In this document: positions 18,366-38,300 of the stretch, piece by piece
Numbering within the stretch: the first letter of the stretch is position 1
How the letters are laid out: each line of letters starts with the position of its first letter
Assembly: GCA_016210005.1 (NCBI GenBank)
Contig: JACQVA010000232.1
Span: 1-38,837 of the forward strand
Source of the DNA: Deltaproteobacteria bacterium
GTDB lineage: Bacteria; Desulfobacterota; Binatia; HRBIN30; JACQVA1
DNA: 38,837 nt
Direction: 5' to 3'
Notes under the pieces: model-generated
What the model was told of the DNA's origin: nothing
Database searches by the model: none
Seen by the model: the letters and a program-made list of their open reading frames with translations, nothing else
Made by a program: the position numbers and the translations under genes

Positions 18366-18449
18366 CAGCCGGCGGGCGAGTGGTCGGAGACGGGTGAGGA
18401 CGGCGAGTCAGCGGTTGGCGAAGCGAGGGTTGGGAAGGGGCGGCACTCC

Positions 18450-19664: not shown

Positions 19665-19704
19665 CGGCGGGAGTGTTCGCGATGGGGCGACAGGAGTGAC
19701 CAGG

Positions 19705-20532: not shown

Positions 20533-20535
20533 GGC

Positions 20536-21606: not shown

Positions 21607-22388
21607 GCCGGCGTGGAGCCAAGCCAACCTCTGCGGCGAAACTGGCGCGGGCGCCGCACGCGACTCGGTTCAGCGTCAAGCAGCGAATCGAGCACTTCGT
21701 GATCATGCTGCTGTTCATCCTGCTGGCGCTGACCGGCCTGCCGCAGGAGTTCTTCGAGGCCGGCTGGGCGCAGTGGCTGATCAGCCGGCTCGGCGGCATC
21801 GATCGGGTGCGCTGGCTGCACCGGGTCGCCGGCATCCTCTTCACCGCCGGCGCCGCCGAGCACTTGGGCGTCATCATCTTCCTGGCGCTCTCCAAGCGGA
21901 TCGAGCCCAGCATGATCCCGACGAAGAAGGACTTCACCGACGCGGTCGTCACTTTGGGGCACTACCTCGGTCTCTCGGAACACGAGGCCCGATTCGATCG
22001 CTACGACTATCGCCAGAAGTTCGAATACTGGGGGCTGATTTTCGGCGGAGCCATAATGGTGGTGACCGGCTTGATCTTGTATTTTCCGACCTTGGTCACG
22101 CGCGTGCTGCCGGGCGAGCTGATTCCCGCCGCCAAGGTGGCGCACGGCAGCGAGGGCCTGCTGGCGTTTCTGATCGTGATCATCTGGCACATCTACAACG
22201 CGCACTTGAGCCCCGAGGTGTTTCCGTTCGACGCCAGCATCTTTACCGGCAAGATCGAGGTCGAGCGCATGAAACGCGATCATCCGCTGGAATACGCGCG
22301 CTTGGTGGCGAGCGGTAAGGTGGCGGCGCTGGAGCAGGAAGCGAGCGCTGAGCCACCCGGCACAGACGATGACCGGCAATCGCCGTGA
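21603..22388 (+). CDS. Membrane cytochrome b (FdnI/HyaC-like fold)
   Basis: A 261-residue membrane cytochrome b, paralogous to the protein at 19705. Candidate haem histidines are in RIEHFVIML, RWLHRVAGIL, AAEHLGVII, KVAHGSEGLL and IIWHIYNAHL. It keeps the shared RFDRYDYRQKFEYWG and FPFDASIFTGK signatures and the PLEYARLV tail. The ATG overlaps the stop of the 9-haem cytochrome (ATGA), indicating translational coupling. It is the last of the four c/b genes; the kinase gene begins about 60 bases later and could belong to the same transcript. Confidence 0.88.
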   Translation: MSRRGAKPTSAAKLARAPHATRFSVKQRIEHFVIMLLFILLALTGLPQEFFEAGWAQWLISRLGGIDRVRWLHRVAGILFTAGAAEHLGVIIFLALSKRIEPSMIPTKKDFTDAVVTLGHYLGLSEHEARFDRYDYRQKFEYWGLIFGGAIMVVTGLILYFPTLVTRVLPGELIPAAKVAHGSEGLLAFLIVIIWHIYNAHLSPEVFPFDASIFTGKIEVERMKRDHPLEYARLVASGKVAALEQEASAEPPGTDDDRQSP

Positions 22389-22451: not shown

Positions 22452-24263
22452 ATGCTGTTCCTCGTCGGCCTGGGGATGCTTGCCCTGGCGGGGATTCTGG
22501 GCACCGCCATCATGGCCGCGAGCCGTGAACTGAGCGCGCAGGCGCTGCGCGAACGCCTGCACTTGGCGCAGGCGCTCGCTGATCACCTCGACTACGTCTT
22601 GAAGTCGAACCTGGTGGCGCTGCAAGACGTGGCACAAAGCGCCCGTGCTGACCTCGAAACGGCTGGCCTCAAGCCGCTCAAGGCCGCGCTACGCGAGGCC
22701 TATCTGCGCTCGATCTTCACCGAGGGCGTGTTCCTGCTCGACCGCCGCGGCGCGCTGCTGGCGATCGAGCCGCAATCGGCCGCGCGCACGCCCGCGGAGC
22801 TCGCCGCCGTGCCGCTCATCCGCCGCGTCGTCCAAGAGGGCCGCCCCGAGGTGTCCGGCCTCGTGGTCCAGGGTAACCGGCGCATCTACGCCGGCGTGCC
22901 GGTGCGTGATTACGGCGGCGAGTTGGTGGGTGCCGTCGGCGGTGAGGTGGATCCGGCAAGCCCCCGTTTCCGCGCGCTGCTCAGTCCCATCCGCATGGGC
23001 GGCACCACCTACCTCGATCTGGTCGATGGTCACGGCGTCGTCCTGGCCTCGACCAAACCCGACCGGGCGTTCACAGAAAGTGATCACGGCCGTTTCTTGG
23101 CCGGCTTGATTCAAGAGAAGCGCTCGGCCGTGCGCGCCTGCCACAGTTGTCACGAGGAGCAGGGCCAGGTGCCGGCGCGCGAGCGCGAGGTCATCGCCTT
23201 TGCCCCGCTGACCTTCGCACCCTGGGGCGTGAGCATCCGCCAGGCCGAGGATGAGGCGTTTGCGGGCGCGCGCGCCGCCCAGCGCCGCCTGCTGCCGATC
23301 GCCGCCGTGACCATCTTGCTCGGGCTGTTGTTCGCCTGGGGCGCGGCCAGAAGCGTGACCAGGCCGTTGGGGATCCTCACGCGCGCGGCCCAACGCATCG
23401 CCGGCGGCAACCTCGAACAACCCACACCACCCTTGGGCGACGACGAGATCGGTCAACTCGCCCGCTCCTTCGACCATATGCGCCAAGCCCTCAAGGACTC
23501 GCTGGCGGCGATCGCCGGCTGGAACCGGGAGCTGGAGGACCGAGTCGGCAAGCGCACCCGCGAACTCGAAGTGCTCTACCAAGAGCTGCGCCGCAAGGAG
23601 GAGATGCGCGGCGAGCTGTTGAAAAAAGTCATCGCCGCACAAGAGGAGGAACGCAAACGCATCGCCCGGGAGTTGCACGACGAGACCAGCCAAGCCTCGG
23701 CGGCGCTCCTGCTCGCCATCGAGGCGAGCACGCAACGGGCCCCCGATGAAGCCAAGGAACGGCTGCGCCGGATGAAGGCCATGGCCGGCCGCATCCTCGA
23801 CAGCATCCACCGCCTGATCTTCGATCTGCGGCCGTCGATGCTCGACGACCTCGGTCTGGTTTCGGCCTTGCGCGCCTCCGCCGAGAGCCACCTTGAACCG
23901 TTGGGTATGGACGTGGCCTTCGAGGTGAGCGGAGCCGAGCGGCGACTGCCGGCTGAAATCGAGACGACCCTCTTCCGCATCGGGCAAGAGGCGATCTCGA
24001 ACATCCGGCGGCACGCCGAAGCCGAGAGCGTCAAGATCACGGTTGAGTTCGGGGAGCAGTGCGTCGCCCTGCGGGTTCAAGACGACGGCAAAGGCTTCAA
24101 CGCCGACGAGCTCGAGCGCTCGCCCGAAGGGGTGCGCGGGCTGGGGCTGCTAGGCATGAGAGAGCGGGCGCTGCTGCTCGATGGTGCCTTGACCATCACC
24201 TCAGCGCCGGGCAAGGGTAGCGAGGTCAGCGCGCGGATCCCGCTGACCCGGAGTCGCACCTGA
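22452..24263 (+). CDS. NarX/LiaS-type sensor histidine kinase with a haem-binding motif in its sensor domain
   Basis: A 603-residue membrane kinase. A first transmembrane helix (about 2-22) and a second (about 282-298) flank a periplasmic Cache-like sensor domain. Near the end of that domain stands C230-H-S-C-H234, a CXXCH haem motif. HAMP (about 299-350), a coiled coil, HisKA_3 with H409 in RIARELHDETSQ, and an ATPase domain ending GKGSEVSARIPL follow. The visible ATG puts the first helix at residue 2. A CTG at 22410, preceded by GAGAGGGG with good spacing, would add a basic leader (SPARFPRRSLRGR) and is a plausible true start. The partner regulator is encoded 22 bases downstream. The haem motif suggests sensing of redox state, gas or a haem-reactive anion. 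Confidence 0.9.
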   Translation: MLFLVGLGMLALAGILGTAIMAASRELSAQALRERLHLAQALADHLDYVLKSNLVALQDVAQSARADLETAGLKPLKAALREAYLRSIFTEGVFLLDRRGALLAIEPQSAARTPAELAAVPLIRRVVQEGRPEVSGLVVQGNRRIYAGVPVRDYGGELVGAVGGEVDPASPRFRALLSPIRMGGTTYLDLVDGHGVVLASTKPDRAFTESDHGRFLAGLIQEKRSAVRACHSCHEEQGQVPAREREVIAFAPLTFAPWGVSIRQAEDEAFAGARAAQRRLLPIAAVTILLGLLFAWGAARSVTRPLGILTRAAQRIAGGNLEQPTPPLGDDEIGQLARSFDHMRQALKDSLAAIAGWNRELEDRVGKRTRELEVLYQELRRKEEMRGELLKKVIAAQEEERKRIARELHDETSQASAALLLAIEASTQRAPDEAKERLRRMKAMAGRILDSIHRLIFDLRPSMLDDLGLVSALRASAESHLEPLGMDVAFEVSGAERRLPAEIETTLFRIGQEAISNIRRHAEAESVKITVEFGEQCVALRVQDDGKGFNADELERSPEGVRGLGLLGMRERALLLDGALTITSAPGKGSEVSARIPLTRSRT

Positions 24264-24285
24264 ACACAGAGCACTGAAGGTGAGC

Positions 24286-24936
24286 ATGAAGATCAAGGTG
24301 CTCGTGGCCGACGACCACGCCCTCTTTCGCGAGGGTATCACCGCCCTGCTCGCCGGCTACGACGACCTCGAGGTGGTCGGCGAGGCCGCCGACGGCAAGG
24401 CAGCCGTCGATCAAGCCGGCAAGCTACACCCCGACGTGGTGCTGATGGACATCGCGATGCCGGGATTGGGCGGGCTGGAGGCGACGTTCGAAATCAAGAA
24501 GCTGTACCCGGAAGTGAAGATCCTGGTCCTCACCCAGTACGACAACCGCGAGTACGTGTATCGCTTCCTCAACGCCGGCGTTTCCGGCTACGTGTTGAAG
24601 CGCGCCGCCGGCACGGAGTTGGTTGCGGCCATTCGCGCTGTGCATCAGAAGGGCACCTTCCTCCACCCCGACGTGGCCCCCGCAGTGGTCGCGGGCTATC
24701 TCGGCGGCGGCATCAAGTCCGCGGCGCAGGACGATCCGTACGAGGCCCTGACCGAGCGGGAGAAGCAGGTGCTCAAGCTGGTCGCCGAAGGCAAGACCAA
24801 CAAAGAGATTGCCGAGATCCTCGGCATCAGCGTCAAGACCGCGATGGGTCACCGGGCCAACCTGATGGACAACCTCGGCATCCACAACAAAGCCGAGCTG
24901 GTCAAGTTCGCCCTCCAGCGCGGCATCATCGAGTGA
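24286..24936 (+). CDS. NarL/LuxR-family response regulator
   Basis: A 216-residue response regulator. The receiver domain holds the acidic pair in VADDHALF and the phospho-acceptor Asp in VVLMDIAMPG (about residue 56). The C-terminal LuxR-type helix-turn-helix is LTEREKQVLKLVAEG with KEIAEILGISVKTAMGHRANL. It should be phosphorylated by the haem-motif kinase encoded just upstream and bind DNA as a dimer. ATG at 24286 has AAGG 6 bases upstream; GTG at 24280 would add two residues. Its stop overlaps the start of the haem-fused binding-protein gene (GTGA), tying this pair to the following sensor trio. Confidence 0.92.
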   Translation: MKIKVLVADDHALFREGITALLAGYDDLEVVGEAADGKAAVDQAGKLHPDVVLMDIAMPGLGGLEATFEIKKLYPEVKILVLTQYDNREYVYRFLNAGVSGYVLKRAAGTELVAAIRAVHQKGTFLHPDVAPAVVAGYLGGGIKSAAQDDPYEALTEREKQVLKLVAEGKTNKEIAEILGISVKTAMGHRANLMDNLGIHNKAELVKFALQRGIIE

Positions 24937-26555
24937 AGCTGATGATACCCGCCGGGCGTGTCAGCCGAGGGTTCTTGGTGCTCTGGATCTTCTTGGAGTG
25001 GAGTGCCGATCCCGCCTCGCCAGTTGAGTCCGCGCTGAACGGTTCGAGCGACGACTGCATTCCCTGCCACCAGGAGCGCGCGAGCGCGCACATTCAGGAC
25101 TGGGAGCAGTCGGTCCATGCGCGCTCTGGGATTACCTGCGTCAGTTGCCACGTTGGCAGCGCCGACAACGTGAGTACCGCGGGCGCGGGCTCCGGCGATC
25201 GACCAGCGGCCTGCCGTGGCGGGCACCCGAGCGTCGTCGTAATCTGCGCGCGGTGTCATCAGCAGGTGGGTCAGGCGTTCCGCGAAAGCCTGCACTATCG
25301 TCACGCGGGGAGCGGACCGACCACGCCCACGTGCGTGGACTGCCACTCGGCTGCGGGTGGCTCGATCCTCTCCGGCGACTCGATCCCGCGGCGCTGCGCG
25401 ACCTGCCACAGCGCGGGCGGTGTAGCAGGCGAGGCGTGGGTGGTGGAGAAAGCGCCGGAGCTGTTGCAGCTTCTGCGCCGGGTGACGCTGGCGCGCACGA
25501 TGGTCGAGGAACATCTGGACCAGCTTGGCAAATCCGGCGCTGACGTGGCATCGTTTCGAGCTTATTTGAGTCGCGTCACGGCGACTTTCCGAGACATTCC
25601 GATCGAGTGGCACCGGTTCAATCTCAAAGATGCGGAGAGTCGGTCCCGCCACGCGCTGGACACTCTCGAATCGCTTCACCAGCGGTTGGAGCGCCGCGTC
25701 CCGGACAGGGGACCCGAACGCCCGCCTGCCGAGTTGTCCCGGGCCGTGGCGTTAACACCGCCGCAGGGCAGACCGCTGCGCTTCGCGGTGGCGAGCATGG
25801 TCGACCCGATTGCGACCTACGAGGCCTACCTGAGGCTATTCGAAGATTTGGGACACAGCCTCAGTCGGCCGTACGAGTTTGTTCAGCGCCGCACCTATCA
25901 GGAGATCAACGATCTCCTGCTGCAAGGCGGTCTGGATCTGGCCTTCATCTGCTCGGGGGCGTACGCGGTGTTACCAGACGATGCACCCATCGAGATCGTC
26001 GCCTTACCGGTTGTGAATGGGAACAGCATCTACCACTCGCTGATCATCGTTCGGAAGGACAACCCGGCGCAGCGGTTCGAGGACCTCGAGGGGGCGCGGT
26101 TCGCCTTCACCGACCCGCTGTCCAACACCGGCTACCTCTATCCGGCTTTCCGAGCCACGAAGCTGGGAAAGGACTTGCAGCGCTTCTTCGCTTCAACGCT
26201 GTTTTCGGGCTCCCACGAGCGCTCCATTCTGGCGGTGTATCGCAAGTTGGCGGATGCCGCGGCCGTGGACGACCTGGTGTTCAACCAACTGGTCGTTCCG
26301 AACAGCCCGTACTGGGATCAGCTCCGGATCATCGAATCCTCACCAGAGTTCGCCATCCCGCCGGTCGTGGCGCCGACGTCGGTGCCGGCCGAACTGCGGG
26401 CACGGATGCGGGGTTTTTTCCTCGAGATGGCGCAGGCGCCTGAGGGGCGCGAGCGGCTCGCCGCCTTGGGGTTCGAGGGCTTTATCGCGGGAGAGAAGGA
26501 ACACTATGCATCCATTCGCGAGATGCTGGAGGTCACCGGTGCCAAACCCCGCTGA
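24933..26555 (+). CDS. Pentahaem cytochrome c fused to a PhnD-like periplasmic binding domain (AioX/ArxX-like sensor component)
   Basis: A 540-residue exported fusion protein. After an N-terminal hydrophobic segment (about residues 12-23) there are five CXXCH motifs: CIPCH (42-46), CVSCH (69-73), CARCH (105-109), CVDCH (134-138) and CATCH (155-159). A helical linker (about 165-255) leads to a PhnD-type phosphate/phosphonate-like binding domain (about 281-540; LRFAVASMVDP, FICSGAYAVL, ARFAFTDPLSNTGYLYP). In AioX and ArxX, a domain of this family binds arsenite and signals to a kinase. Here the next two genes are a kinase and a sigma-54 activator, the same X-S-R order. The start GTG overlaps the preceding stop by 4 bases; the kinase gene overlaps its end by 17. 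The ligand is not readable from sequence. Confidence 0.87.
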   Translation: MKLMIPAGRVSRGFLVLWIFLEWSADPASPVESALNGSSDDCIPCHQERASAHIQDWEQSVHARSGITCVSCHVGSADNVSTAGAGSGDRPAACRGGHPSVVVICARCHQQVGQAFRESLHYRHAGSGPTTPTCVDCHSAAGGSILSGDSIPRRCATCHSAGGVAGEAWVVEKAPELLQLLRRVTLARTMVEEHLDQLGKSGADVASFRAYLSRVTATFRDIPIEWHRFNLKDAESRSRHALDTLESLHQRLERRVPDRGPERPPAELSRAVALTPPQGRPLRFAVASMVDPIATYEAYLRLFEDLGHSLSRPYEFVQRRTYQEINDLLLQGGLDLAFICSGAYAVLPDDAPIEIVALPVVNGNSIYHSLIIVRKDNPAQRFEDLEGARFAFTDPLSNTGYLYPAFRATKLGKDLQRFFASTLFSGSHERSILAVYRKLADAAAVDDLVFNQLVVPNSPYWDQLRIIESSPEFAIPPVVAPTSVPAELRARMRGFFLEMAQAPEGRERLAALGFEGFIAGEKEHYASIREMLEVTGAKPR

Positions 26556-27999
26556 GCCGTCTCTGGCACACTGGCGGCCGCGGCTGACACTGCGTGTTCG
26601 ATTCGCCGTTTTGATGGCGCTCGCCGTCGCTCTGCTCGGCGGGGTCAATCGCCTTTACCTGGACACCCGCATCCTCAATGAGTTGGAGGAGGAGCTGGAA
26701 CTGCGCGCGCTGAGCTTCGCGCGCTACCTTGGCGCCGAAAGCGTCAACCTCGTGTTGCGGCAGGACTTCGTTGGCTTACACAAGCTCTTGAATGATGCTC
26801 GCAGTAGCGGTTCGGACGTCGAGTACGCGTTCATCATGGATCCGACGAACAAGGTCTTGGTGCACACGTTCGAGTCCGATTTTCCGGAGCAACTCACGCT
26901 CCTGAATCGATACCGCGAGCATGACGGGTATCAGGTTCAACGCATCGAGATCTTCAGCGAGCGTTTTCGTGACTTTGCCGTGCCGCTCTACCATGGCGAA
27001 CTGGGCGTGTTGCGCTTAGGGGTGCGCGACGGGCGGATTCTGGCGCGGGTCACGTCCGTGCGTCGAGAGCTGACGCTGGTCCTGTCCGCGGTCATGGCCT
27101 TGAGTGCCGCTGCCGCCTACCTGCTCACCTACTTTGGTCTCCGACCGTTGGCTGCCATCACCGGTGCCCTGGAGCGCTTCGAGCCCGGACAGCGCTGTGA
27201 GACGATCGTTCCGCGACGCGACGACGAGGTGGGGGATCTCGCCACCAAGGTCAATCTGGTGACTGCTCGGCTGCACAACTCCCACACGCAGATGATGCAA
27301 ACCGAGAAGATGGTGGCGGCGGGGCTCCTGGCCTCCGGAATCGCCCACGAGATCAACAATCCGATCTCCGGCCTGCAGAACTGCCTGCGCCGGATCCAGG
27401 CGAAGCCCGAGGATGTCCCGCAGATCAAGGAGTACACCGCGGTGATGCTACAGGCCGCCGAGCACATCGGGGCGGTGGTGCATGGCTTGCTGGATTTCTC
27501 GCGCAGCACACCCAAGCAGATGCTCGTGATCGATCTGCGCGGCGTGCTGACAAAGGCGCTCCATCTAACGGCGTTCCGGATCGAGAAGAATCAGATCGAG
27601 CTGCAACAGGCCATCCCGGAAGACCCGGTTTGGGTGCGCGGCGAAGAGGCGCAGTTGGTGCAAGTCGTGGTCAATGTGCTGTTGAACGCCATCGATGCCA
27701 TGGAGGCCGGCGGGGTCTTGCAGCTGATGCTGGAGCGTGAAGACGGGCAGATAGTACTTCGGGTGCGCGACGACGGTGTGGGCGTCGCCCCCGAACATCT
27801 ATCACGGGTCTTCGAGCCTTTCTTCACGACGAAGGGAAGCGGCAAGGGAACGGGGTTGGGGCTCGCCGTCACCCAAGGTATCATTCTCGACCACGACGGA
27901 CGCATCGCCATCGACTCGTCGCCCGGTGTAGGCACTGAAGTGAAAATCCAGCTGCCGTTGTGGCGCCAGATCCAACGGGTCGGACATGAAGCTGCGTGA
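26539..27999 (+). CDS. Membrane sensor histidine kinase (S component of an X-S-R system)
   Basis: A 486-residue kinase. A transmembrane helix at about 20-40 and another at about 180-200 enclose a periplasmic sensor of about 140 residues (SFARYLGAESVNLVL, YAFIMDPTNKVLVHT). A HAMP-like linker, HisKA with H270 in SGIAHEINNPISGL and an ATPase domain (NVLLNAIDAM, RDDGVGV, GKGTGLGLAV) follow. GTG at 26539 is taken as the start: it lies inside the preceding gene, has GGAGG 6 bases upstream, and places the first helix correctly. Its overlap with both neighbours (17 and 14 bases) shows coupled translation with the haem-fused binding protein, presumably its periplasmic input, and with the sigma-54 activator, its output. 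No haem motif is present here. Confidence 0.9.
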   Translation: MPNPAEPSLAHWRPRLTLRVRFAVLMALAVALLGGVNRLYLDTRILNELEEELELRALSFARYLGAESVNLVLRQDFVGLHKLLNDARSSGSDVEYAFIMDPTNKVLVHTFESDFPEQLTLLNRYREHDGYQVQRIEIFSERFRDFAVPLYHGELGVLRLGVRDGRILARVTSVRRELTLVLSAVMALSAAAAYLLTYFGLRPLAAITGALERFEPGQRCETIVPRRDDEVGDLATKVNLVTARLHNSHTQMMQTEKMVAAGLLASGIAHEINNPISGLQNCLRRIQAKPEDVPQIKEYTAVMLQAAEHIGAVVHGLLDFSRSTPKQMLVIDLRGVLTKALHLTAFRIEKNQIELQQAIPEDPVWVRGEEAQLVQVVVNVLLNAIDAMEAGGVLQLMLEREDGQIVLRVRDDGVGVAPEHLSRVFEPFFTTKGSGKGTGLGLAVTQGIILDHDGRIAIDSSPGVGTEVKIQLPLWRQIQRVGHEAA

Positions 28000-29374
28000 G
28001 CACAACAAACGGCCGTGTTCCGTACTGCTCGTTGATGACGAGCGGACGATCCTGGTCTCGTTGCGTGACTCGCTGCGCGACGCGGAGATCGAAGTCGTCA
28101 CCGCTTCTACCGGAGACGAGGCGCTGCGGCTCCTTCGCAACGGCACCTTCGGCGTGGTCGTCTCCGATGTGCGCATGCCCGGGCTGTCAGGGCTGGAGCT
28201 GCTTGCCAAGATCCGCGACGAGGGCATCGATGCGCCCGTCATCCTCATGACCGCGTATGCGACGATCGATCAGGCGGTGGCGGCGATGAAGACGGGGGCG
28301 TACGACTACGTCACCAAGCCGTTCCCCAACGAGAAAGTCGTGCGCATGGTGCAGAACGCCTGGGCGCTGGTGAGCCTGAGAGCCGAGGTCCGCGACCTGC
28401 GCGCGCAGCGGGGCACGGGGCTGGAATTTCTGGTGGGCACGAGCGCGCCATGGGCGAGAGTCCTCGACAAGGTGTGGGCCGTGGCAGCCACCGACTCCAC
28501 CGTCCTCATCGTTGGGCCGAGCGGGACCGGGAAAGAGATGGTGGCCAATGCACTGCACCTGCTGTCGCGGCGCAAAGACGGGCCTTTCATCAAGGTCCAC
28601 TGCGCGGCGCTGCCCGATTCACTCATCGAGAACGAGCTATTCGGGCACGAGAAGGGTGCGTTCACCGGTGCCGTTGCGGAGGTCAAGGGGCGTTTCGAGC
28701 TCGCGCACGGTGGCACCCTCTTGCTGGATGAGGTCGACGACATTCCTTTGAACGTTCAGGTCAAGCTGCTGCGGGTCATCCAAGAGCGCGTCATCGAAAG
28801 ACTGGGAGGCGGCAAACCCATCCCGGTGGACGTCCGGCTGCTGGTGACGAGCAAGGGCCGGCTTGAGGACTTGGTCGAGCAGGGCACGTTCCGCCAGGAC
28901 CTGTACTACCGCTTGTCCGTAGTGCAGTTGCACCTGCCCAGGCTGGCCGAACGCCGGGACGATATCCCGTTGCTCCTGGAGCACTTCCTGGCGCTGTGCA
29001 GTCACCGGATGATGCGTGCATGCGGGGGCTTCACTCCCGAAGCCTTGGCGGTGCTGACCCGCTACGACTATCCGGGCAACGTCCGTGAGCTGGAACATAT
29101 CGTCGAATCGTGCTGTGCGTTGAGCAGTGGCGGCCCAATCGGCACGCCCCTGTTGCCGGACCGAGTCAGGGAGAGAGTTCAAAACCAGCCGGCGCTCCCC
29201 CGCTCCTTCAACGGCCAGCCCCTGCAAGAGGCCATCGACGAATTCGAGCGCTCCTATCTGGAGACCGCCTTGCGGGAGTTCGAAGGGAAGCGCGCCGAGT
29301 TGGCGGACCGACTCGGCATCAGCCGCAAGACACTCTGGGAGAAGCTGAAGAAGCACGGGCTCGTCGCTGAGTGA
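27986..29374 (+). CDS. NtrC-family sigma-54-dependent response regulator (R component)
   Basis: A 462-residue activator. Receiver domain about 10-125 with phospho-acceptor D61 (VVVSDVRMPG) and conserved Lys in YVTKPF. AAA+ domain about 145-380 with Walker A GPSGTGKE, the sigma-54 contact loop GAFTGA and Walker B LLLDEVDD. The C-terminal Fis-type helix-turn-helix is AELADRLGISRKTLWEKLKKHG. It should activate a sigma-54 promoter in response to the kinase that overlaps it. A candidate target with the right -24/-12 spacing lies at 29554-29569, upstream of the molybdoenzyme operon. The overlap with the kinase gene is 14 bases. Confidence 0.94.
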   Translation: MKLREHNKRPCSVLLVDDERTILVSLRDSLRDAEIEVVTASTGDEALRLLRNGTFGVVVSDVRMPGLSGLELLAKIRDEGIDAPVILMTAYATIDQAVAAMKTGAYDYVTKPFPNEKVVRMVQNAWALVSLRAEVRDLRAQRGTGLEFLVGTSAPWARVLDKVWAVAATDSTVLIVGPSGTGKEMVANALHLLSRRKDGPFIKVHCAALPDSLIENELFGHEKGAFTGAVAEVKGRFELAHGGTLLLDEVDDIPLNVQVKLLRVIQERVIERLGGGKPIPVDVRLLVTSKGRLEDLVEQGTFRQDLYYRLSVVQLHLPRLAERRDDIPLLLEHFLALCSHRMMRACGGFTPEALAVLTRYDYPGNVRELEHIVESCCALSSGGPIGTPLLPDRVRERVQNQPALPRSFNGQPLQEAIDEFERSYLETALREFEGKRAELADRLGISRKTLWEKLKKHGLVAE

Positions 29375-29409
29375 GGGGCGCCGCCGTCTCGGCGCGCACG
29401 CTACACGCA

Positions 29410-29425
29410 CGTAACCGCAGTTACG
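29410..29425. promoter_or_regulatory. Palindrome, candidate upstream activator site
   Basis: A perfect inverted repeat CGTAAC-CGCA-GTTACG sits about 155-170 bases upstream of the start expected from the sigma-54 promoter at 29554-29569. That is the usual distance for an NtrC-type activator site. A further half site GTTACG is at 29474-29479. An adjacent inverted repeat CGCACGC/GCGTGCG spans 29426-29450. The activator gene ends 36 bases before, so one of these could instead help termination, but no T-run follows. Confidence 0.4.
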
Positions 29426-29553
29426 CGCACGCAACACCGACAAGCGTGCGATTTCCGTAGCCCTGCATCTTGCGTTACGCCGCCGAAACACCGCCGCCAA
29501 CCCGCACGGTTCGGCAGTGGCCGGTTGACTGGTTCTGCGCTGCGGTCTTTCCG

Positions 29554-29569
29554 CGGCCCCACACTTGCA
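29554..29569 (+). promoter_or_regulatory. Candidate sigma-54 promoter of the molybdoenzyme operon
   Basis: CGGCCCCACACTTGCA fits the TGGCAC-N5-TTGCA consensus: GG and GC are exactly 10 bases apart, the -12 element is a perfect TTGCA and the -24 element has two mismatches. It is 102 bases before the first start codon of the operon, on the correct strand, and follows directly a gene for a sigma-54 activator. Confidence 0.5.
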
Positions 29570-29670
29570 AGGTGTACCTCCGTCAATGCCGCGAGGCAGC
29601 TCGCCCGAAGCGGTTCGGGGGGCTCATAGCGCAGGGGGCATCGGATGAACCAGTTTCCAGGAGAGTGGCG

Positions 29671-30339
29671 ATGACACGTGTACGTGCAGGCTCGCTTCGG
29701 TGTGTAGTCGTGGCTCTGGCGCTGTTGGTCAGCGCCTGCGGCGGCGATGATGCAGGGCCGCCTCCGGCACCAACGGCGACGGCCACCCGAGTTCCGACAG
29801 CCACGGCGACGACCGTAGTAGTGCCCGTCACAAGTACCGCGACTCCGGTGCCGGCAACCGCAACGGCGACCGCCGCGCCGACGGACACGGCCACCGAAGC
29901 TCCGACGCCTACCGCGACGGCCACAACCGCGCCGCCAACACCCACGGTCACGCCGATCCCGCCGACGGCAACGGCAACTGACACCCCGGTGCCGGTAACT
30001 GCAACACCGACTGTCGCACCCACAGCGACGGCAACGGGCGGCGTCACGAACGTCCGCGCCCTGCATACGTCGGGCTCGTCGCAGTACGACGCGAACTGCC
30101 TCAAGTGCCACGCAGACGTTCTCACCGAGCAATCACTGAACCCCCAGATTCCGGGCCCGCATCCGGCCATGCTCCTTTGGGTCGGCGGGGCGACCAACGC
30201 TGCGTGTACCTTCTGTCACAAGGCGGTGGACTTCGATCGTGCATCGGCAGCCAACGTCCGCCGCAATGTGGATGTCCAGACCTGCGCGATTTGTCACGGC
30301 CCGTCTGGCCCGGGACAGCAGTTCTACCAGTCCAAGTGA
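29671..30339 (+). CDS. Trihaem c-type cytochrome lipoprotein with Thr/Pro/Ala-rich spacer
   Basis: A 222-residue lipoprotein. Residues 1-22 form a lipoprotein signal with lipobox LLVSAC. Residues about 25-125 are a low-complexity spacer of Thr, Ala, Pro and Val (repeated TATATP-like units) without structure. The C-terminal domain has three CXXCH motifs (CLKCH, CTFCH, CAICH). The spacer would let the haem head reach across the periplasm or wall-like layer from a lipid anchor. AGGAGAG 5 bases before the ATG confirms the start. It is the first gene behind the candidate sigma-54 promoter and 18 bases from the molybdoenzyme, so it is the likely redox partner of that enzyme in place of a membrane subunit. 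Confidence 0.85.
   Translation: MTRVRAGSLRCVVVALALLVSACGGDDAGPPPAPTATATRVPTATATTVVVPVTSTATPVPATATATAAPTDTATEAPTPTATATTAPPTPTVTPIPPTATATDTPVPVTATPTVAPTATATGGVTNVRALHTSGSSQYDANCLKCHADVLTEQSLNPQIPGPHPAMLLWVGGATNAACTFCHKAVDFDRASAANVRRNVDVQTCAICHGPSGPGQQFYQSK
29770..30045 (+). repeat. Low-complexity coding repeat
   Basis: This part of the trihaem lipoprotein gene consists of irregular repeats built from ACGGCGACG, ACTCCGGTGCC and CCGACG-like words, encoding the Thr/Pro/Ala spacer. Such tracts often change length by slippage. The reading frame is intact here. Confidence 0.6.
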
Positions 30340-30357: not shown

Positions 30358-33264
30358 ATGGCCAAGATCGGTAAGCAGGGTGGCCTCGATATCAGCCTCG
30401 ACCGCCGGCGCTTCCTGCAGTGGGGCGGGGCGCTCGCCTCGCTGGCATCGGTCAGTTCGGTGCTTGGAACGCGCCGCCTCGCGGCGCTGGTGTTCTCGCA
30501 GAATCCCCCCGACCCGCCCGAGGGCACCGCGGGCGTGGAGTTCAAGTTCAGCGTCTGTCAGATGTGCCACGGCCGCTGCGGGATCATGTGCAAGATCAAG
30601 GATGGCGTGCTCCTTAAGATCGACGGCAACCCGTACCACCCGAACAACATGCACGACGACGAGCGGCTACCGTATGCGACCGCGGTAGCGACGGCCGTGC
30701 GTACGCGCGGGCGCCTGTGCCTCAAGGGCCAGTCGGGCGTGCAGACCCTCTACGATCCGTACCGGATCAAACAGCCGCTCAAGCGGGTGGGGCCGCGCGG
30801 TTCGGGGCAGTGGCAAGCGATTAGCTGGGACGATGCGCTCAGCGAAATCGCGAACAAGCTGGTCAGCCTGCGCGACTTTGTGAACGACGCGAAGCCGGGG
30901 CGCTCGAAGGCGGGCAAGGCGGTCAACAAGGTGCTCTTCGCCCCCGGCCGTACGATCGAGGGCGAGTTCACCGATCGCATCTGGAAGGACGGTTACGGAA
31001 CCTACAACTACCGTCTCGACCACACCAGCATCTGTGAGGTGGATCACCACGTCGCGTACGAGCTGGCCACCTGGGACAAGGCCGCCGCGACACCCGCCGG
31101 GCGCAAGAACCACTTCAAGCCCGAGTTGCTCGGCTGCGAGTACGCGATCTTCTTCGGCTCCAACCCCCTCGAGGCCAACTTTGCGATGGTGCCGCTGGCA
31201 CGCAACCTCATGGAGATGAAGAAGCGCGGCGGTAAGTACGTGGTTGTAGATCCGCGCTTCTCCAATGCCGCTGCCCAGGCGGACCAGTGGGTGCCGATCA
31301 TTCCCGGCACCGACGCCGCGCTCGCCCTGGGCATGGCTCGCTGGATCGTCGACAACGGCCGCCACGACACGGTCTACCTGAGCAACGCCAACAAGGCGGC
31401 GGCGACGGCGGACGGCGAGACCACGTGGACCGACGCCACGTGGCTGGTGATCACGGAACCCGCGGACGCGAACGCCGGGAAGTACATGAGGGCGAACGAG
31501 ATCGGAGGCGCCGCCACGAACTTCGTGGCGTGGAACGGCGCCGCGGGCGTGGAGGTCATCAGCCAGAGTACGACGGCCCCGGTCGACGGTGTGCTGGACA
31601 CCGAAGAGGTGATCGTAAACGGCAAGCGCTGCAAGTCGGCGTTCACGCTCTTCCGCGAACGGATCCAGCAGAAGACCCTGGCCGAGTACAGCGCCATCTG
31701 CGGCGTAAGCGAGGCCACCATCACCCAGCTGGCGAACGACTTCACCGCGCACGGGAAGAAGGCCGCGACGGAGCACTACCGCGGCGTCGTGCAGCACACC
31801 AACGGTGCCTACAGCTCCTTAGCCATCATGGCGCTCGATTTCCTCATCGGCAACTGCGACTGGAAGGGCGGCTCGACCGCCGGCGGCGGCGGCTGGTCGT
31901 TCACCAACGCCACCGGCGGTGTCAACGTACAGACCGTGCCCGGCGGCGTCGCCGCGAGCGGGGTGCGGATCGACCGCACCAAGGGCAAGACCTACGAGAA
32001 CCAGGGGTCGGAGTACCTCGCGGCGGACGACTACCCGGCGCAGCGACCGTGGTTCCCCTACGCCACGCACGGCAACTTCCAGGAAGTGATCCCCAGTGCG
32101 GCACACGGGTACCCGTACGAGGCGAAGGCCCTCATCACCTACTGGAACGCCTGGCCGTACTCGACGCCGGCGCTGCGAAACGTGTTTGAGACGTACATCG
32201 CTGACGAAACGAAGTGCGAGTTGTTCGTGGCCATCTCGGTCAATATCGGCGAGGTGGCCGCGTGGGCGGACTACATCCTGCCGGACACCACCTACCTCGA
32301 GAAGTTCGCGTTCACCGGCGGCACGCCGAGCGTCATCACCAAGCTCACCGCTTTCCAGCAACCGGTGGTGGGCACGTTCGACGGCAGCATGAACTACACG
32401 CCGGTTCTTCCGCAGACGAAGATGTACATCGACATCCTCATCGAGCTCGGAAAGAAGATGGGGATCCCCGGGGTCGGCGCGGGCGCCTTCGCGGACGGTG
32501 GCTCCCTCGACCGCGCCTGGGACTTCGTGCAGAGGGCGCTGAACAACCTGTCGATCAGCAGCGGCAAGAGCGTTGCCGACATCCAGGCCAAGGGCGGCGC
32601 CTTCGAAGACCCGGGCAACGAGTACGACTCCGGCAATCCGAACAAGCAGAAGAACCGTTACGGAAACGAGTTTCACTTCTACATCGAGGAGCTCGCGGTG
32701 ACGAAGGACTCCATGTCCCCCACCGCGCAGAAGTTCGATCCAATGGCGAAGTACGAGGTTCCCAGCCATGCCGACGGTACTCCGGTGGACGACGGCCCGG
32801 GTTACCCGTTCCGTCTGATCACGTACAAGTCGGTGCGCCACGGCCAGGCGCGAACCGCAGCCAACCCCTGGCTGATGGCACTCCAACCCGAGAACTTCGT
32901 GGACATCAGCAGCGCCGATGCGGCCGCGCTCGGCGTCGAAACCGGCGAGAAGGTGAAGATCACGTCGGTCAGCAATCCCGCCGGTATCGTGGGCAAGGCG
33001 TGGGTCACCGAAGGGTTGCGGCCGGGCGTCATCGCGGTGTCTCACCACTTCGGGCACTGGGAACTGGGGTCGCGCGCGCACGTGATCGACGGCGTGACGC
33101 AGCCGCACGACCCGAGCCGCGGCGCGGGTACCATGCCGAACCTGGTGATGCGCCTAGACGATGCGATCAGCGCCGCCAACCCCGCCGCGAAGGTGTCGTT
33201 GCAAAGCAAGATCGGCGGTAGCGTGTCCTTCTACGACACACGCGTCAACGTCGTGAAGGCGTGA
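30358..33264 (+). CDS. Periplasmic molybdopterin oxidoreductase, TtrA/ArrA-like clade
   Basis: A 968-residue catalytic subunit of the DMSO-reductase superfamily. A TAT signal (LDRRRFLQWGGALASLA) exports it. The N-terminal [4Fe-4S] site is C67-x2-C70-x3-C74 with C121 in RLCLKG. Mo is probably held by C226 in LDHTSICEVDH. KIDGNPYHPNN..LPY and IKQPLKRVGPRGSGQWQ resemble tetrathionate reductase TtrA, and the sequence also fits the related arsenate reductase ArrA group; the family does not settle the substrate. Context favours an arsenic or related oxyanion: X-S-R regulators before and arsR-acr3-arsC after. GGAGG 8 bases upstream sets the start. The ferredoxin subunit gene follows 11 bases later. 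No NrfD-type anchor is encoded nearby, unlike canonical Ttr or Arr loci. Confidence 0.85.
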   Translation: MAKIGKQGGLDISLDRRRFLQWGGALASLASVSSVLGTRRLAALVFSQNPPDPPEGTAGVEFKFSVCQMCHGRCGIMCKIKDGVLLKIDGNPYHPNNMHDDERLPYATAVATAVRTRGRLCLKGQSGVQTLYDPYRIKQPLKRVGPRGSGQWQAISWDDALSEIANKLVSLRDFVNDAKPGRSKAGKAVNKVLFAPGRTIEGEFTDRIWKDGYGTYNYRLDHTSICEVDHHVAYELATWDKAAATPAGRKNHFKPELLGCEYAIFFGSNPLEANFAMVPLARNLMEMKKRGGKYVVVDPRFSNAAAQADQWVPIIPGTDAALALGMARWIVDNGRHDTVYLSNANKAAATADGETTWTDATWLVITEPADANAGKYMRANEIGGAATNFVAWNGAAGVEVISQSTTAPVDGVLDTEEVIVNGKRCKSAFTLFRERIQQKTLAEYSAICGVSEATITQLANDFTAHGKKAATEHYRGVVQHTNGAYSSLAIMALDFLIGNCDWKGGSTAGGGGWSFTNATGGVNVQTVPGGVAASGVRIDRTKGKTYENQGSEYLAADDYPAQRPWFPYATHGNFQEVIPSAAHGYPYEAKALITYWNAWPYSTPALRNVFETYIADETKCELFVAISVNIGEVAAWADYILPDTTYLEKFAFTGGTPSVITKLTAFQQPVVGTFDGSMNYTPVLPQTKMYIDILIELGKKMGIPGVGAGAFADGGSLDRAWDFVQRALNNLSISSGKSVADIQAKGGAFEDPGNEYDSGNPNKQKNRYGNEFHFYIEELAVTKDSMSPTAQKFDPMAKYEVPSHADGTPVDDGPGYPFRLITYKSVRHGQARTAANPWLMALQPENFVDISSADAAALGVETGEKVKITSVSNPAGIVGKAWVTEGLRPGVIAVSHHFGHWELGSRAHVIDGVTQPHDPSRGAGTMPNLVMRLDDAISAANPAAKVSLQSKIGGSVSFYDTRVNVVKA

Positions 33265-33275
33265 AGGAGAGCAAC

Positions 33276-33923
33276 ATGGGCCAGAAAGGTTGGCTAATCG
33301 ATCTTGGCAAGTGCACCGGTTGCGAGAGCTGCACGGTGGCCTGCAAGTCGGAGTGGAACACGGCGCCGCTCGAGTCCCCGCTCGAGTTCAAGCCTGGCTG
33401 TTCGGGAGAACTCCCTGACGCCCCAGAATTCACCGGCTGTCTCGCGACACCGAAGCATGTGAGCTATCGCGCGGTCATCGGGCAGGAGAGTGGCACGTAC
33501 CCCCACCCCGTCCGCCTCTTCATCACGAGCGCCTGCAACCATTGCGACAAGCCCGCTTGCTTGGCTTCGTGTCCGCTCTCGGACAAGAACGACCCCGCGA
33601 ATCCGAACAACGTCATCACCAAGCGAGCATCCGACGGTGCCGTGCTCATCAACCAGGAAACATGCATCGGTTGCCAGTATTGCGTCTGGGCCTGCCCGTA
33701 CGGGGCACCGCGCTTCAACGAGGTCACCAAGAAAGTCGAGAAGTGCACGTTCTGCGTCCATCGGGTGGACGACGGCTTGTTGCCGGCGTGCGTCACCACC
33801 TGCGTTGGCCGCGCCTTGTACATGGTGGAAGACTTCAGCCTAGCCGAGTCTGGGCTCAATGCACCGCCACGTTTTTCCGATCCGAAGCTGACCACCCCAG
33901 CGGTGAAGTTCGTGCCGCGATGA
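33276..33923 (+). CDS. Four-cluster ferredoxin subunit of the molybdoenzyme (DmsB/ArrB-like)
   Basis: A 215-residue iron-sulfur subunit with four complete cysteine sets: CTGCESCTVACKSEW, CNHCDKPACLASCP, CIGCQYCVWACPYG and CTFCVH with CVTTCVG. It has no signal peptide, so it is presumably carried out with the TAT-tagged catalytic subunit. It should shuttle electrons between the molybdenum site and an external donor or acceptor. ATG at 33276 is preferred because AAGGAG lies 6 bases upstream; GTG at 33261 would overlap the preceding gene. It overlaps the chaperone gene by 4 bases. The cysteine pattern differs from the ferredoxin at 16405, so the two are not recent copies. Confidence 0.92.
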   Translation: MGQKGWLIDLGKCTGCESCTVACKSEWNTAPLESPLEFKPGCSGELPDAPEFTGCLATPKHVSYRAVIGQESGTYPHPVRLFITSACNHCDKPACLASCPLSDKNDPANPNNVITKRASDGAVLINQETCIGCQYCVWACPYGAPRFNEVTKKVEKCTFCVHRVDDGLLPACVTTCVGRALYMVEDFSLAESGLNAPPRFSDPKLTTPAVKFVPR

Positions 33924-34642
33924 CACCGGCGAACGCCGAGTTCAGTGCGCTTGCACCGCTCGCAACGAGCCGTGCCGGGGTGTACGAGGTCCTGGCCTCG
34001 CTCTACCTGCAGCCGCCTTCTGCCGCACTGATTGCCGCGCTGTTGGAATTGGCGGTGTCGCCCGCAATGGCCGAGCTCTCGGCGGGCTGCGCCGGAGATC
34101 TCCTGCGACGCTACGCCGCTAGCTACAACGGCGAGGTGGAAGCGCTACAGCAAGAGTTCAACGATCTGTTCGCGGTACCGCTCGGGCGTTATGTGACCCC
34201 GTACGAGGCGGTGTACAGGGACGAACGCGTGGTGGGAGGAGAACGCGTCCGCGGCCTACTCATGGGCCCCTCGACGGCCGCAGTTCTGCAAGCATACCGG
34301 GACTACCACTTCGCGATCAGCCCAGAGTGTCCCGAGCTCCCAGATCATATTGGTGTCGAGCTGAGTTTCATGTCGCTGCTTTGTGAGCGGGAACGTCAGG
34401 GATGGGAGGCGGGAGACCTGCCCGCAGTCAACCTGCTATTGGCGCGCGAGCTCCGTTTTCTCGGGGATCACCTCTTACGCTGGGTTCCGGATCTCAGCCA
34501 GCGGATCTCGGCAAACGCACGCACGCTCTTCTATCGCGGGATCGGCCACCTCACCGAGGAATTCATTCGAGCGGACGCGGCGGCGCTCGTCCGAGTGTGT
34601 GGCGAGCGCCAGTGTCTCACATCTGCTGAGCTGACGGCCTAG
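33920..34642 (+). CDS. TorD/DmsD-family molybdoenzyme chaperone
   Basis: A 240-residue all-helical cytoplasmic protein. The diagnostic stretch EFNDLFAVPLGRYVTPYEAVY (residues about 78-98) and the later PELPDHIGVELSFMSLL are typical of TorD/DmsD/NarJ chaperones, which hold the TAT-tagged catalytic subunit until cofactor insertion. The start ATG overlaps the stop of the ferredoxin gene (ATGA). Its place as fourth gene of the operon supports a dedicated role in maturing the molybdoenzyme at 30358. Confidence 0.9.
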   Translation: MTPANAEFSALAPLATSRAGVYEVLASLYLQPPSAALIAALLELAVSPAMAELSAGCAGDLLRRYAASYNGEVEALQQEFNDLFAVPLGRYVTPYEAVYRDERVVGGERVRGLLMGPSTAAVLQAYRDYHFAISPECPELPDHIGVELSFMSLLCERERQGWEAGDLPAVNLLLARELRFLGDHLLRWVPDLSQRISANARTLFYRGIGHLTEEFIRADAAALVRVCGERQCLTSAELTA

Positions 34643-34736: not shown

Positions 34737-36311
34737 ATGCGTTTCGCTGGCGGCATAGGCGCTGCCATCGGGAGCAGCCTCAAGCTGAAGCTGAGCATCC
34801 TTCTGGCTGTCATTCTCGGCGGCATCGTCGGCCTCGTGTCTTGGAGCGCCATCGCGATGCAGGAAGGCCAGCTCCTGTGGACCTCCCGAGCGCGCCTGAG
34901 CGCCCTGCAAGAATTGTTGAAGACCGTGGTGACCGCCAGCATGCTGGCTCGGGACCGCGACAATGTTCAACGCGTCATCGAGGCGCTCGGCAGTCACGAA
35001 GACATCGATGCGGTGCGAATCTTCGATCCGCAAGGCGTCATCCACTTCTCCTCGCGCCCCGAAGAACGCGGCCAGCGCGTGAGCACCGAGGAGCTATCCC
35101 GGACGGCGGTGGAAGCGAAGCCGACAACACTCACTCGCGGCGCCACCGCGACGGAGTACACACTGGTGCAACCGATGTTCAACCAACCGGCGTGTTTCTC
35201 TTGCCACGAGCCGGAGCAGCGGATTCTCGGCCTCCTCCAGCTCAGCCTCACCTTGGGCCCAACTCGGCAGCAGCTTGCCGCCTTCAAGCGCCTCGCCGTG
35301 GCGGCGACGATGACCATCTTGGGCATGATGGTCGTCGCCATTTGGTTTGCGCTGACGTTCTTGATCGACCGGCCCCTGCAACGGCTGGTTGCGGCGATGG
35401 CACGGGTTGAGGATGGTGACCTCAGTGCCCGCGCCGGAGTTTACCGCGACGACGAACTCGGGCGGTTAGCCCTTCACTTTAACGAGATGCTCTCGCAACT
35501 GCAGGTCGCCCAGCAGCAACTCAAGCGCCACCATCAGGAGCAATTGGCACGGGCTGACCGCCTGGCGACCATCGGCGAGATGGCGGCTACCCTTGCCCAC
35601 GAGATTCGGAATCCGCTGAGCGGACTGCTCGGTGTCATTTCGGTGCTGAGCCGGAACTTCGTCGACGGTGACCCGCGGCTGGAGATCGCCCGCGAAGGCC
35701 ATTCCCTCGTCGACCGGATGAACGAGACGATTGAAGAGCTCCTTCATTACGCGAGGCCGTCGTCGCCCCACTTGCGCCCCGTCAAGCTCGACGACATCGT
35801 CGATCGGAGCGTGGCGTTGGCCGAGGGCGAGGCAAGGAAGGCGGGCGTCCGAATTGTCAGAGATGCAAACACAGCCAATAGGTGCGGCGGTGATGCTGAA
35901 TCTCCGACCATCCGGGCCGACCCACACCAAATGCAGCAGGTCTTGGTGAATCTCATTAGCAATGCCGTCCAGGCATGCGCGACGGGAGGGCAGGTGCGCA
36001 TTTGCGCCTGTCTCCGGAAACATGAGGCTGAGCAGCCGCTCGCCTGCGTCGAAATCGAGGACAACGGCAAGGGCATGACCGCTGACGAACTCGCGCAGGT
36101 CTTCAACCCGTTCTTCACGAGCAAGTTGCACGGGACGGGGCTCGGACTTCCGATCGCGCAACAAATTATGGAATACCACGAGGGCCGCATTGCGTTGACC
36201 AGCGCACCGGGTCAGGGTACCCGCGTGCAGGTGGAGTTGCCGGCGCATCCAGAGGGCCCGGCAAAGGATGGCTCCAATTTCATGCTGCGCGACCCCAACC
36301 CTCGGCCGTAA
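34737..36311 (+). CDS. Membrane sensor histidine kinase with a haem-binding motif
   Basis: A 524-residue kinase. Transmembrane helices at about 18-40 and 187-210 enclose a periplasmic domain with C153-F-S-C-H157, a CXXCH haem motif close to the second helix. HAMP (about 211-262), HisKA with H288 in ATLAHEIRNPLSGL and an ATPase domain (LVNLISNAVQ, EDNGKGM, HGTGLGLPIAQQ) follow. The position of the haem motif just before the second helix is like that in the kinase at 22452, although their catalytic domains belong to different kinase families. No regulator gene adjoins it; the sigma-54 activator at 27986 is a possible partner. The 3' end overlaps the convergent arsC gene by 32 bases. No strong ribosome binding site precedes the ATG. 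Confidence 0.9.
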   Translation: MRFAGGIGAAIGSSLKLKLSILLAVILGGIVGLVSWSAIAMQEGQLLWTSRARLSALQELLKTVVTASMLARDRDNVQRVIEALGSHEDIDAVRIFDPQGVIHFSSRPEERGQRVSTEELSRTAVEAKPTTLTRGATATEYTLVQPMFNQPACFSCHEPEQRILGLLQLSLTLGPTRQQLAAFKRLAVAATMTILGMMVVAIWFALTFLIDRPLQRLVAAMARVEDGDLSARAGVYRDDELGRLALHFNEMLSQLQVAQQQLKRHHQEQLARADRLATIGEMAATLAHEIRNPLSGLLGVISVLSRNFVDGDPRLEIAREGHSLVDRMNETIEELLHYARPSSPHLRPVKLDDIVDRSVALAEGEARKAGVRIVRDANTANRCGGDAESPTIRADPHQMQQVLVNLISNAVQACATGGQVRICACLRKHEAEQPLACVEIEDNGKGMTADELAQVFNPFFTSKLHGTGLGLPIAQQIMEYHEGRIALTSAPGQGTRVQVELPAHPEGPAKDGSNFMLRDPNPRP

Positions 36312-36717: not shown

Positions 36718-37845
36718 CTAGCCGGTGGTTGTCGCGTACGCTGCCGCCCCGGGCGCTTTGTCGCGAAAGTAGTGTCGCCGGAACCACAGCGCAACGTTGA
36801 CCAGACCGATCATCACCGGCACCTCGACGAGCGGGCCGATCACCGCAGCGAACGCCGCACCGTGGTGAATACCAAACGTGGCCACCGCGACGGCGATCGC
36901 CAGCTCGAAGTTGTTCGAGGCAGCGGTGAACGACAGCGTGGCCGATTGCGGGTAGGTAGCGCCTACCGTCTTGCTCATGAAGAAGGCGATCAGGAACATC
37001 ACCACGAAGTAGACGAGCAGCGGAATGGCAATGCGCACCACGTCCGTCGGGAGCTGCACGATCGCTTCGCCTTTGAGCGAGAACATCACCACGATGGTGA
37101 AGAGTAACGCAACGAGCGTGATCGGGCTGATCTTGGGAATGAAATGAGTATGATACCAGTCCTTGCTCTTCAGCCGGATGAGCACGACACGGGTGACGAG
37201 ACCGGCGATGAACGGGATGCCGAGGTAGATGAACACGCTCTTGGCGATCTCGCCGATCGTGACGCTCACCGCGACGCTCTGCAGGCCGAACCAGGCTGGC
37301 AATACGGTGATGAAGAAGTAGGCATAGATCGAGAAAAAGAGGATCTGGAAGACGGAGTTGAAGGCGACGAGGCCGGCGCAGTACTCGGGGTCACCCCTCG
37401 CCAGGTCGTTCCAGACCAAGACCATGGCGATGCAGCGGGCCAGGCCGATCATGATGAGGCCCACCATGTACTCCGGCTTGTCTGGAAGGAAGACAACCGC
37501 CAGTCCGAACATGAGTACCGGCCCGACGACCCAGTTCTGCACCAGCGACAGGCCTAGTATGCGCCAGTTACGGAAGACGCTGCCCAGCTCCTCGTAGCGG
37601 ACCTTGGCCAGCGGCGGGTACATCATGAGGATGAGCCCGATGGCGATCGGAATGGACGTGGTTCCGACGCTGAAGCGGTTGAGGAAGGGCTCAATGCCAG
37701 GAAGCAGATACCCGCTCCCGACGCCGACCGCCATGGCGAGGAATATCCACAGTGTCAGAAAGCGGTCGAGGAAGCTCAGCCGTTTCGGTTGCCTCTCCGG
37801 CGCCAGTCCACCGGTGGTAGCCGCAGAAGCCGTATCCCTGCTCAT
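36718..37845 (-). CDS. acr3: Arsenite efflux permease ACR3
   Basis: A 375-residue permease with about ten transmembrane helices. The signature [16 protein letters not shown] contains the conserved Cys required for As(III) transport, and [21 protein letters not shown] is the second family signature. It exports arsenite from the cytoplasm. ATG at 37845 is chosen because GGGAG lies 6 bases upstream and the long frame before it is the arsR coding region; it overlaps the arsR stop by 4 bases. The product follows the usual ACR3 length. Confidence 0.95.
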
Positions 37846-38300
37846 CGATCTCTCCCGTGCTGACGCTGCTGCATCAGACGATGACCCTCCGGACAACAGC
37901 CACCGGAACGACGAACGCTGCGCGCGTACCCGAGATCGGCTTTGGCCTGGGGCAGCAGGCGAGCACAGACGGTGAGGCACGCCAGCAGTTTGCTGTGCAG
38001 CGCGTTCTGCGCTGGCGCCAGCTCGTAGAACATCCAGAGGCCGTGCTGCCGCGGCTCGACGAACCCCGAGCGACGCAGGTACCCGAGGTGTCGCGACACG
38101 GTGGGCTGCGGCGCGCGCAGGATGGCGACCAGATCGCCGACGCAGAGCGGACCGTGCTGGAGGAGCTGCAAAATCCGCAAACGCGTGCGGTCGGCAAATG
38201 CGCGGAACATCAAGTCGACGCCCGCAGGGGCTTTCGACGCGATCGTGCCGGTGCCACGGCGCACGGGCGCGCTTTCGATCCTCTGCCGAACTCTCTCCAT
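37842..38300 (-). CDS. arsR: ArsR-family arsenic-responsive repressor
   Basis: A 152-residue winged-helix repressor. The DNA-binding core runs from about 30 to 95 ([18 protein letters not shown], recognition helix [15 protein letters not shown]). The classical CxC site of the ELCVCDL type is reduced to a single Cys (LCVGD, C53). Other cysteines are C108, C112 and a C-terminal pair C135-C136, so As(III) may bind at a different site, as in ArsR of the C-terminal-cysteine type. It likely represses its own operon. A near-consensus promoter ends 14 bases before the ATG, which leaves a very short leader; ATG at 38210 is a possible alternative start. Confidence 0.9.

Follow-up and report, generated by a model that had tools for sequence, protein, structure and literature searches.

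Among the closest described systems is AioXSR-aioBA of Rhizobium/Agrobacterium (strains NT-26, GW4 and 5A), in which the X, S and R genes precede the target operon, R is an NtrC-type regulator, and 16-bp GTT-N10-AAC palindromes are followed by a -24/-12 element. In the portion of the source drawn on here, two tandem palindromes with a -24/-12 element are reported in all 12 aioXSR-aioBA operons (PMC3834237), and in A. tumefaciens GW4 the sequence that AioR protects from DNase I, as excerpted, is GTTCGGATTTCCGAAC, a 16-bp GTT-N10-AAC sequence (PMC5335332). ArxXSR of Alkalilimnicola and the X-S-R genes of Azoarcus sp. KH32C also include an NtrC-type regulator. KH32C carries a perfect GTTACGTCGGCGTAAC and a -24/-12 element, and for Alkalilimnicola the relevant excerpt gives an RpoN promoter and a putative ArxR site that begins gtaac and was inferred by homology only (PMC5908839). 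ArrXSR of Chrysiogenes arsenatis contains the ArrX closest to the sensor domain described below, and its ArrR appears in the same excerpt as CitB/FixJ-like and lacking an AAA+ domain (PMC5908839).

Here we describe a locus in a 38,837-nucleotide stretch of Deltaproteobacteria DNA (the window) that shares with AioXSR-aioBA the gene order, the NtrC-type regulator and the palindromes followed by a -24/-12 element. Its target, however, is a TtrA-like molybdoenzyme operon rather than arsenite oxidase; its half-sites are GTTACG where those of aio are GTTCGG; its recognition helix carries RKT where aio has RTT; and its sensor bears five CXXCH motifs. In ArxXSR and KH32C, by contrast, the target operon is divergent and belongs to another molybdoenzyme arrangement, and, unlike Chrysiogenes ArrR, the regulator adjoining the promoter in the window is NtrC-type. 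The kind of system is already known from aio operons; the different target enzyme, a rule relating helix residue K or T to the half-site, and the heme segment of the sensor are new here.

The X-S-R module and its predicted target operon

The oxyanion-binding domain of X has ArrX as its best solved match (6x6b, E 7.3e-43), followed by AioX, and six of the seven AioX pocket residues named in the excerpt of PMC5908839 are kept in X, with one Ser changed to Thr, as aligned by eye. The S and R genes follow X, and R combines a receiver, an AAA+ domain and a Fis-type HTH. The first-pass annotation had placed an NtrC-type activator with an intact GAFTGA loop next to the promoter, and this was borne out: the gene ends at 29374 and the protein carries both GAFTGA and a Walker A motif. 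A literature search found no AioR regulators discussed with GAFTGA. Gene order and domain content place the locus among three-component systems of the AioXSR/ArxXSR type, ahead of a TtrA-like molybdoenzyme operon (Table 1). The activator's membership of an AioXSR-like sensing system had been overlooked in the first pass, as had the second dyad at 29474.

Table 1. Coordinates of the genes and DNA elements discussed in the text.
Feature	Position in window	Strand	Remarks
Multiheme cytochrome run, Fe-S protein, NrfD-like protein, two cytochrome b561-like proteins	13185-22388		
dCache/HAMP/HisKA_3 kinase and NarL/GerE-type regulator	22452-24936		Immediately before X
X: ArrX/AioX-like oxyanion-binding domain (~residues 281-533) with N-terminal five-CXXCH segment	24933-26555	+	
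S: sensor histidine kinase (HisKA, HATPase_c, weak sCache)	26539-27999	+	GTG start judged by eye
R: NtrC/AtoC-type response regulator, receiver, AAA+ with GAFTGA, Fis-type HTH	27986-29374	+	Recognition helix ISRKTLWEK
Degenerate third copy, GCTACACGCACGTAAC	29400-29415	+	2 mismatches, score 10/12, 20 bp before dyad 1
CGTAAC-CGCA-GTTACG palindrome	29410-29425	+	Spans right half of degenerate dyad copy and left half of dyad 1
Predicted upstream activating dyad 1, GTTACGCGCACGCAAC (GTT-N10-AAC)	29420-29435	+	AioR-footprint-like layout; relatives
Predicted upstream activating dyad 2, GTTACGCCGCCGAAAC	29474-29489	+	Repeat; relatives
Sigma-54 -24/-12 element, GCGGCCCCACACTTGCA	29553-29569	+	10/14 consensus positions
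Expected transcription start	29580	+	Placed by spacing only (~12 bases past element)
Lipoprotein-like protein, three CXXCH motifs (operon's first gene)	29671-30339	+	Synteny
Catalytic molybdoenzyme subunit	30358-33264	+	Top NCBIfam model: TtrA (418.5 bits; cut-off 1750)
4Fe-4S electron-transfer subunit	33261-33923	+	
TorD/NarJ-like chaperone	33860-34642	+	Start approximate
HAMP-type sensor kinase	34737-36311		Directly 3' of operon
ACR3-family arsenite efflux gene	36718-37980	-	

The X gene runs without interruption through an N-terminal segment of ~270 residues with the five CXXCH motifs. Among 72 X frames examined, this segment occurs in the window's alone and is absent from the other 71, some of which are cut by contig ends. 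In five other loci (L136, L140, L145, L146 and L147) the X frame has 570-618 aa against the usual ~300 aa, the extra length being C-terminal. We tentatively read the sensor as a five-heme-motif cytochrome segment fused to an ArrX-like domain. Given such a fusion, the switch may respond jointly to an oxyanion and to periplasmic redox and may induce the respiratory molybdoenzyme, about which little is known, only when both signals are appropriate, an idea that we hold at well below even confidence. No relevant published cytochrome-ArrX fusion was found in a literature search.

TtrA is the best NCBIfam model for the enzyme, yet the match falls far under the model's cut-off; no ArxA model appeared among the matches seen. 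AioA and ArrA were considered as the target and rejected (136.1 bits for ArrA, cut-off 1600; 30.3 bits for the arsenite oxidase large subunit, cut-off 359), and no model or solved structure matched closely enough to name a substrate. A search of public genomes located relatives of the enzyme, 29-65% identical to it, at 27 loci; the genome titles refer to Nitrospinae, NC10, Deltaproteobacteria, Gammaproteobacteria, Phycisphaerae and Acidobacteria, among others. Within the phylum, 13 of 395 genomes, counting the window's, encode it or a relative at E <= 1e-115. Since an acr3 gene lies nearby and the sensor is ArrX-like, arsenic or a similar oxyanion is our first guess for the substrate. A further HAMP-type sensor kinase gene directly follows the operon, and the run of multiheme cytochrome and associated genes upstream of the module suggests a long electron-transfer chain.

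A second two-component pair, of NarL/FixJ type, immediately precedes X, and it could be this pair that chiefly controls the operon, as proposed for Chrysiogenes ArrSR. Besides its position, the pair's homologues in three NC10 loci (L024, L025 and L032) lie between X and the equivalent operon, where no sigma-54 regulator was found. Against such control, the gap before the window's operon holds AioR-type dyads and no FixJ-like TCAGG-N6-CCTGA site at <=2 mismatches. A Chrysiogenes-type ArrSR arrangement was rejected, the adjoining regulator being NtrC-type and the gap holding no FixJ-like site, and we give control by the pair the least credence of any alternative considered here. Control by the R protein is the reading that we carry forward.

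Dyads and a -24/-12 element in the gap

Between the stop of the regulator gene (29374) and the operon's first ATG (29671, preceded by AGGAG) lies a gap of 296 bp. A repeat finder returned three copies of a 20-bp direct repeat, at 29400, 29420 and 29474, each of which opens with an inverted repeat of common layout. Both good dyads are imperfect, with five of six arm pairs matching. Their shared pattern, GTTNCG-N4-CGNAAC, occurs at nine places in the 5.9-Mb genome, and two of these are in this gap, 54 bp apart. A reversed control pattern occurs at 18 places, so the pattern is not enriched genome-wide, and at <=2 mismatches its frequency in the window is at chance level (27 against 24.15 expected). 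Two exact copies in a single gap nevertheless stand out: of 20,000 simulated 296-bp stretches, 0.155% held at least one and none held two. The pattern was first read off the window, and its independent weight therefore comes from relatives.

Measured back from the start codon at 29671, the dyad centres lie at ~243 and ~189 nt, dyad 2 inside the 100-200 nt range given for aio palindromes in the excerpted source and dyad 1 slightly beyond it (PMC3834237). Six of the other seven genomic places lie inside open frames of at least 150 aa, and none of the seven has a -24/-12 match of at least 11 within 300 bp. This check is uninformative, because open frames overlap the dyads in the window too, and the promoter there scores 10.

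The spacing and -12 box claimed for the promoter are as described: in CGGCCCCACACTTGCA (29554-29569), GG at 29555-29556 and GC at 29567-29568 are separated by exactly 10 bases, and TTGCA is present at -12. The -24 half is weak (GGCCCC, or CGGCCCC, against the consensus TGGCACG), and the whole element has three mismatches to TGGCACG-N4-TTGCW, a quality of match that the window shows about as often as chance predicts (66 observed at <=3 mismatches, 76 expected), as it does GG-N8-TTGCA (6 observed, 5.97 expected). Among 400 random 296-bp stretches, ~15% hold a plus-strand GG..GC site of at least 10/14, falling to 2% when TTGCA is also required. Taken alone, then, the element is statistically unremarkable.

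Support for a sigma-54 promoter ahead of the operon is as follows. The genome has one sigma-54 factor gene (a single match above cut-off), many relatives have -24/-12 sites at the matching place, and no sigma-70-like site was found in 29300-29750, on which ground a sigma-70-like promoter was rejected. Comparison with related genomes supported the -24/-12 element and went against the palindrome register proposed with it, which recurs in 3 of 24 loci with this type of regulator. Quite probably, judging from the sequences compared, the interval is a real sigma-54 control region whose enhancer has to be re-drawn.

Dyads across loci and the recognition helix

We compared 73 loci: the surroundings of X matches, plasmid X matches, molybdoenzyme loci and the window. 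From 395 sampled phylum genomes came all 49 X matches at E <= 1e-35 other than the window's, yielding 48 stretches; to these were added all 17 plasmid X matches and 7 of the 27 molybdoenzyme loci, namely those with X or a sigma-54-type regulator nearby. A downstream NtrC-type or derived regulator is present in 53 loci; its recognition helix is of the LWEK type in 24 and of another type in 29. The 20 loci in which no such regulator was found were left out of the comparison. The two groups were chosen differently: LWEK loci were picked on the helix pattern and the rest on resemblance to the AAA+ region of the window's regulator. L134 was assigned to the LWEK group by hand (the C-terminus kept there starts WEKMRRH).

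A score of at least 11/12 for the 16-bp dyad is reached in 22 of the 24 LWEK loci and in none of the 29 others, and one of at least 10/12 in 24/24 and 1/29. These counts include near-duplicates in both groups (L079/L133, L083/L130/L132 and L084/L131 with LWEK; L172/L173/L175 and L167/L169 with other helices) and a stretch before aioB added by hand to L086, without which L086 scores 9 and the LWEK counts become 21/24 and 23/24. In L079, L133, L084 and L131 the final codons of the regulator gene share sequence with the best dyad, and in L080 the best dyad lies inside a divergent gene, a dyad in the gap of that locus scoring 11. All five K-helix relatives from the phylum (L136, L140, L145, L146 and L147) score at least 10 and four of them at least 11. 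Two loci with different helices, L027 and L036, have -24/-12-like sites and no dyad.

Our layout derives from the window plus 13 relatives, whereas we wrote down the exact consensus scored above once a previous test of these 73 loci, set up differently and before most of them had been fetched, had shown more. In 19 LWEK loci that test counted 14 dyads where 0.73 were expected (11 loci had at least one), and in 29 other loci it counted one where 1.37 were expected. Among loci fetched after the layout was drawn, 5 of 11 with LWEK were positive (L140, L146, L147, L129 and L133) as against 1 of 27 others; its stricter symmetry rule passed 3 of the 5 K-helix phylum relatives. In the 25 loci without a strong sigma-54 AAA+ match it found seven dyads in six loci (1.6 expected), five of them in L082, L085, L087 and L128, whose regulators have the LWEK helix, and two in L171 and L177, without LWEK.

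The first-pass annotation had drawn the activator site differently, as the palindrome CGTAAC-CGCA-GTTACG (CGTAACCGCAGTTACG). This sequence is present, at about -170 to -155 from the expected start. At <=3 mismatches it occurs 10 times against 8.88 expected, a chance level, and a 6-bp-arm palindrome with a spacer of 0-10 is found in ~75% of random 296-bp stretches (n = 400); by itself such a palindrome is statistically unremarkable. The suggested genome scan at other promoters returned this locus as the sole occurrence, and no regulon therefore follows from it.

Could CGTAAC-N4-GTTACG itself be the operator of the adjoining activator? It is perfectly symmetrical and occurs once in the 5.9-Mb genome, and relatives match it at 11/12, in its N4 form at L140 and L081 and in an N3 form at L023 and L035. 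Across LWEK loci, however, SGTAAC-N4-GTTACS reaches at least 11/12 in 3 of 24 (window included) and the N3 form in 2 of 24, whereas the shifted dyad does so in 22 of 24; no locus with another helix (0/29) reaches that score in the N4 register. At a score of at least 10, the N3 form is no commoner in LWEK loci (6/24) than in others (7/29); the N4 form is somewhat commoner (7/24 against 1/29), an excess that the half-sites of neighbouring dyads would yield. Moreover, the excerpted AioR footprint has a GTT-outward layout (PMC5335332). We consider this reading very improbable, though less so than control by the NarL/FixJ-type pair; in that register the palindrome is probably not an operator, to judge from the loci compared, and we retain the shifted 16-bp dyads as the predicted sites.

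Helix and half-site co-vary. Where the regulator has an RK.LWEK helix (ISRKTLWEK and its kin, the window's included), all 12 loci scoring at least 11 have a GTTAC-type half-site; where it has RT.LWEK, all 10 have a GTTCG-type half-site. The T loci are all alphaproteobacterial, and near-duplicates occur among the loci of both kinds, so the co-variation does not represent independent events. We propose the rule that the helix residue two before LWEK, K or T, matches a GTTAC or GTTCG half-site, respectively. The rule, which we did not find in the literature searched, is simple to test, and if it holds the targets of such regulators would be predictable from sequence.

Proposed control and promoters in relatives

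From gene order, domains, dyads, the -24/-12 element and the co-variation of helix and dyad across loci, all present in the sequences, we infer ligand, phosphorylation, binding, looping and start site as follows. The periplasmic ArrX-like protein would bind an oxyanion and signal through the S kinase to the NtrC-type regulator. Once phosphorylated, the regulator would bind the two 16-bp dyads, GTTACG-N4-CGNAAC, possibly assisted by the degenerate copy. An AAA+ ring would assemble on the dyads, and DNA looping and the GAFTGA loop would open sigma-54 polymerase at the -24/-12 element, starting transcription of the cytochrome, molybdoenzyme, Fe-S subunit and chaperone genes near the position predicted in Table 1. 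We hold this account as a whole, AioXSR/ArxXSR-type control through dyads and a sigma-54 promoter, to be likely. On this account, enhancers of the AioR type would serve not only arsenite oxidase operons but also a TtrA-like molybdoenzyme with relatives across many phyla, which would point to an oxyanion as the inducer and as the likely substrate class.

Downstream of the dyad, -24/-12 elements are found in L023 (Nitrospinae, enzyme 65% identical; CTGGCATGACCTTTGCT), L035 (Myxococcales; ATGGCCCGCACTTTGCC), Azoarcus sp. KH32C (GTGGCGCGAATGTTGCG) and NT-26 (CTGGCACAACGATTGCA). Among the 19 LWEK loci with GAFTGA, 13 have a -24/-12 match of at least 10/14 after the best dyad, and none was found at that score in the other six (L080, L083, L130, L132, L134 and L146); the gap of L080, read alone, holds one scoring 11.

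Four Paracoccaceae plasmid loci (L082, L085, L087 and L128) encode AioR-like regulators without GAFTGA or a recognisable Walker A motif that keep the LWEK helix. They have perfect GTTCGG-N4-CCGAAC dyads followed by no -24/-12 match above 9/14, which looks like a switch away from sigma-54. If the window resembled them in this respect, its dyads would be real regulator sites, its operon would be read from a sigma-70-type promoter and its -24/-12 match would be accidental; that match is indeed moderate and of a kind fairly frequent in random sequence. The window's regulator, however, has both motifs that those four lack, no sigma-70-like site was found around the gap, and -24/-12 sites stand at the matching place in L023, L035, L081, L140, L147 and NT-26. 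We rate this alternative slightly below the one in which the palindrome is the operator, and keep sigma-54 as the predicted route of transcription. On a Phyllobacterium zundukense plasmid (L086), the AioR-like gene is annotated as two pieces, one with GAFTGA and the other with the helix, and the aioB promoter there retains both the dyad and the -24/-12 element.
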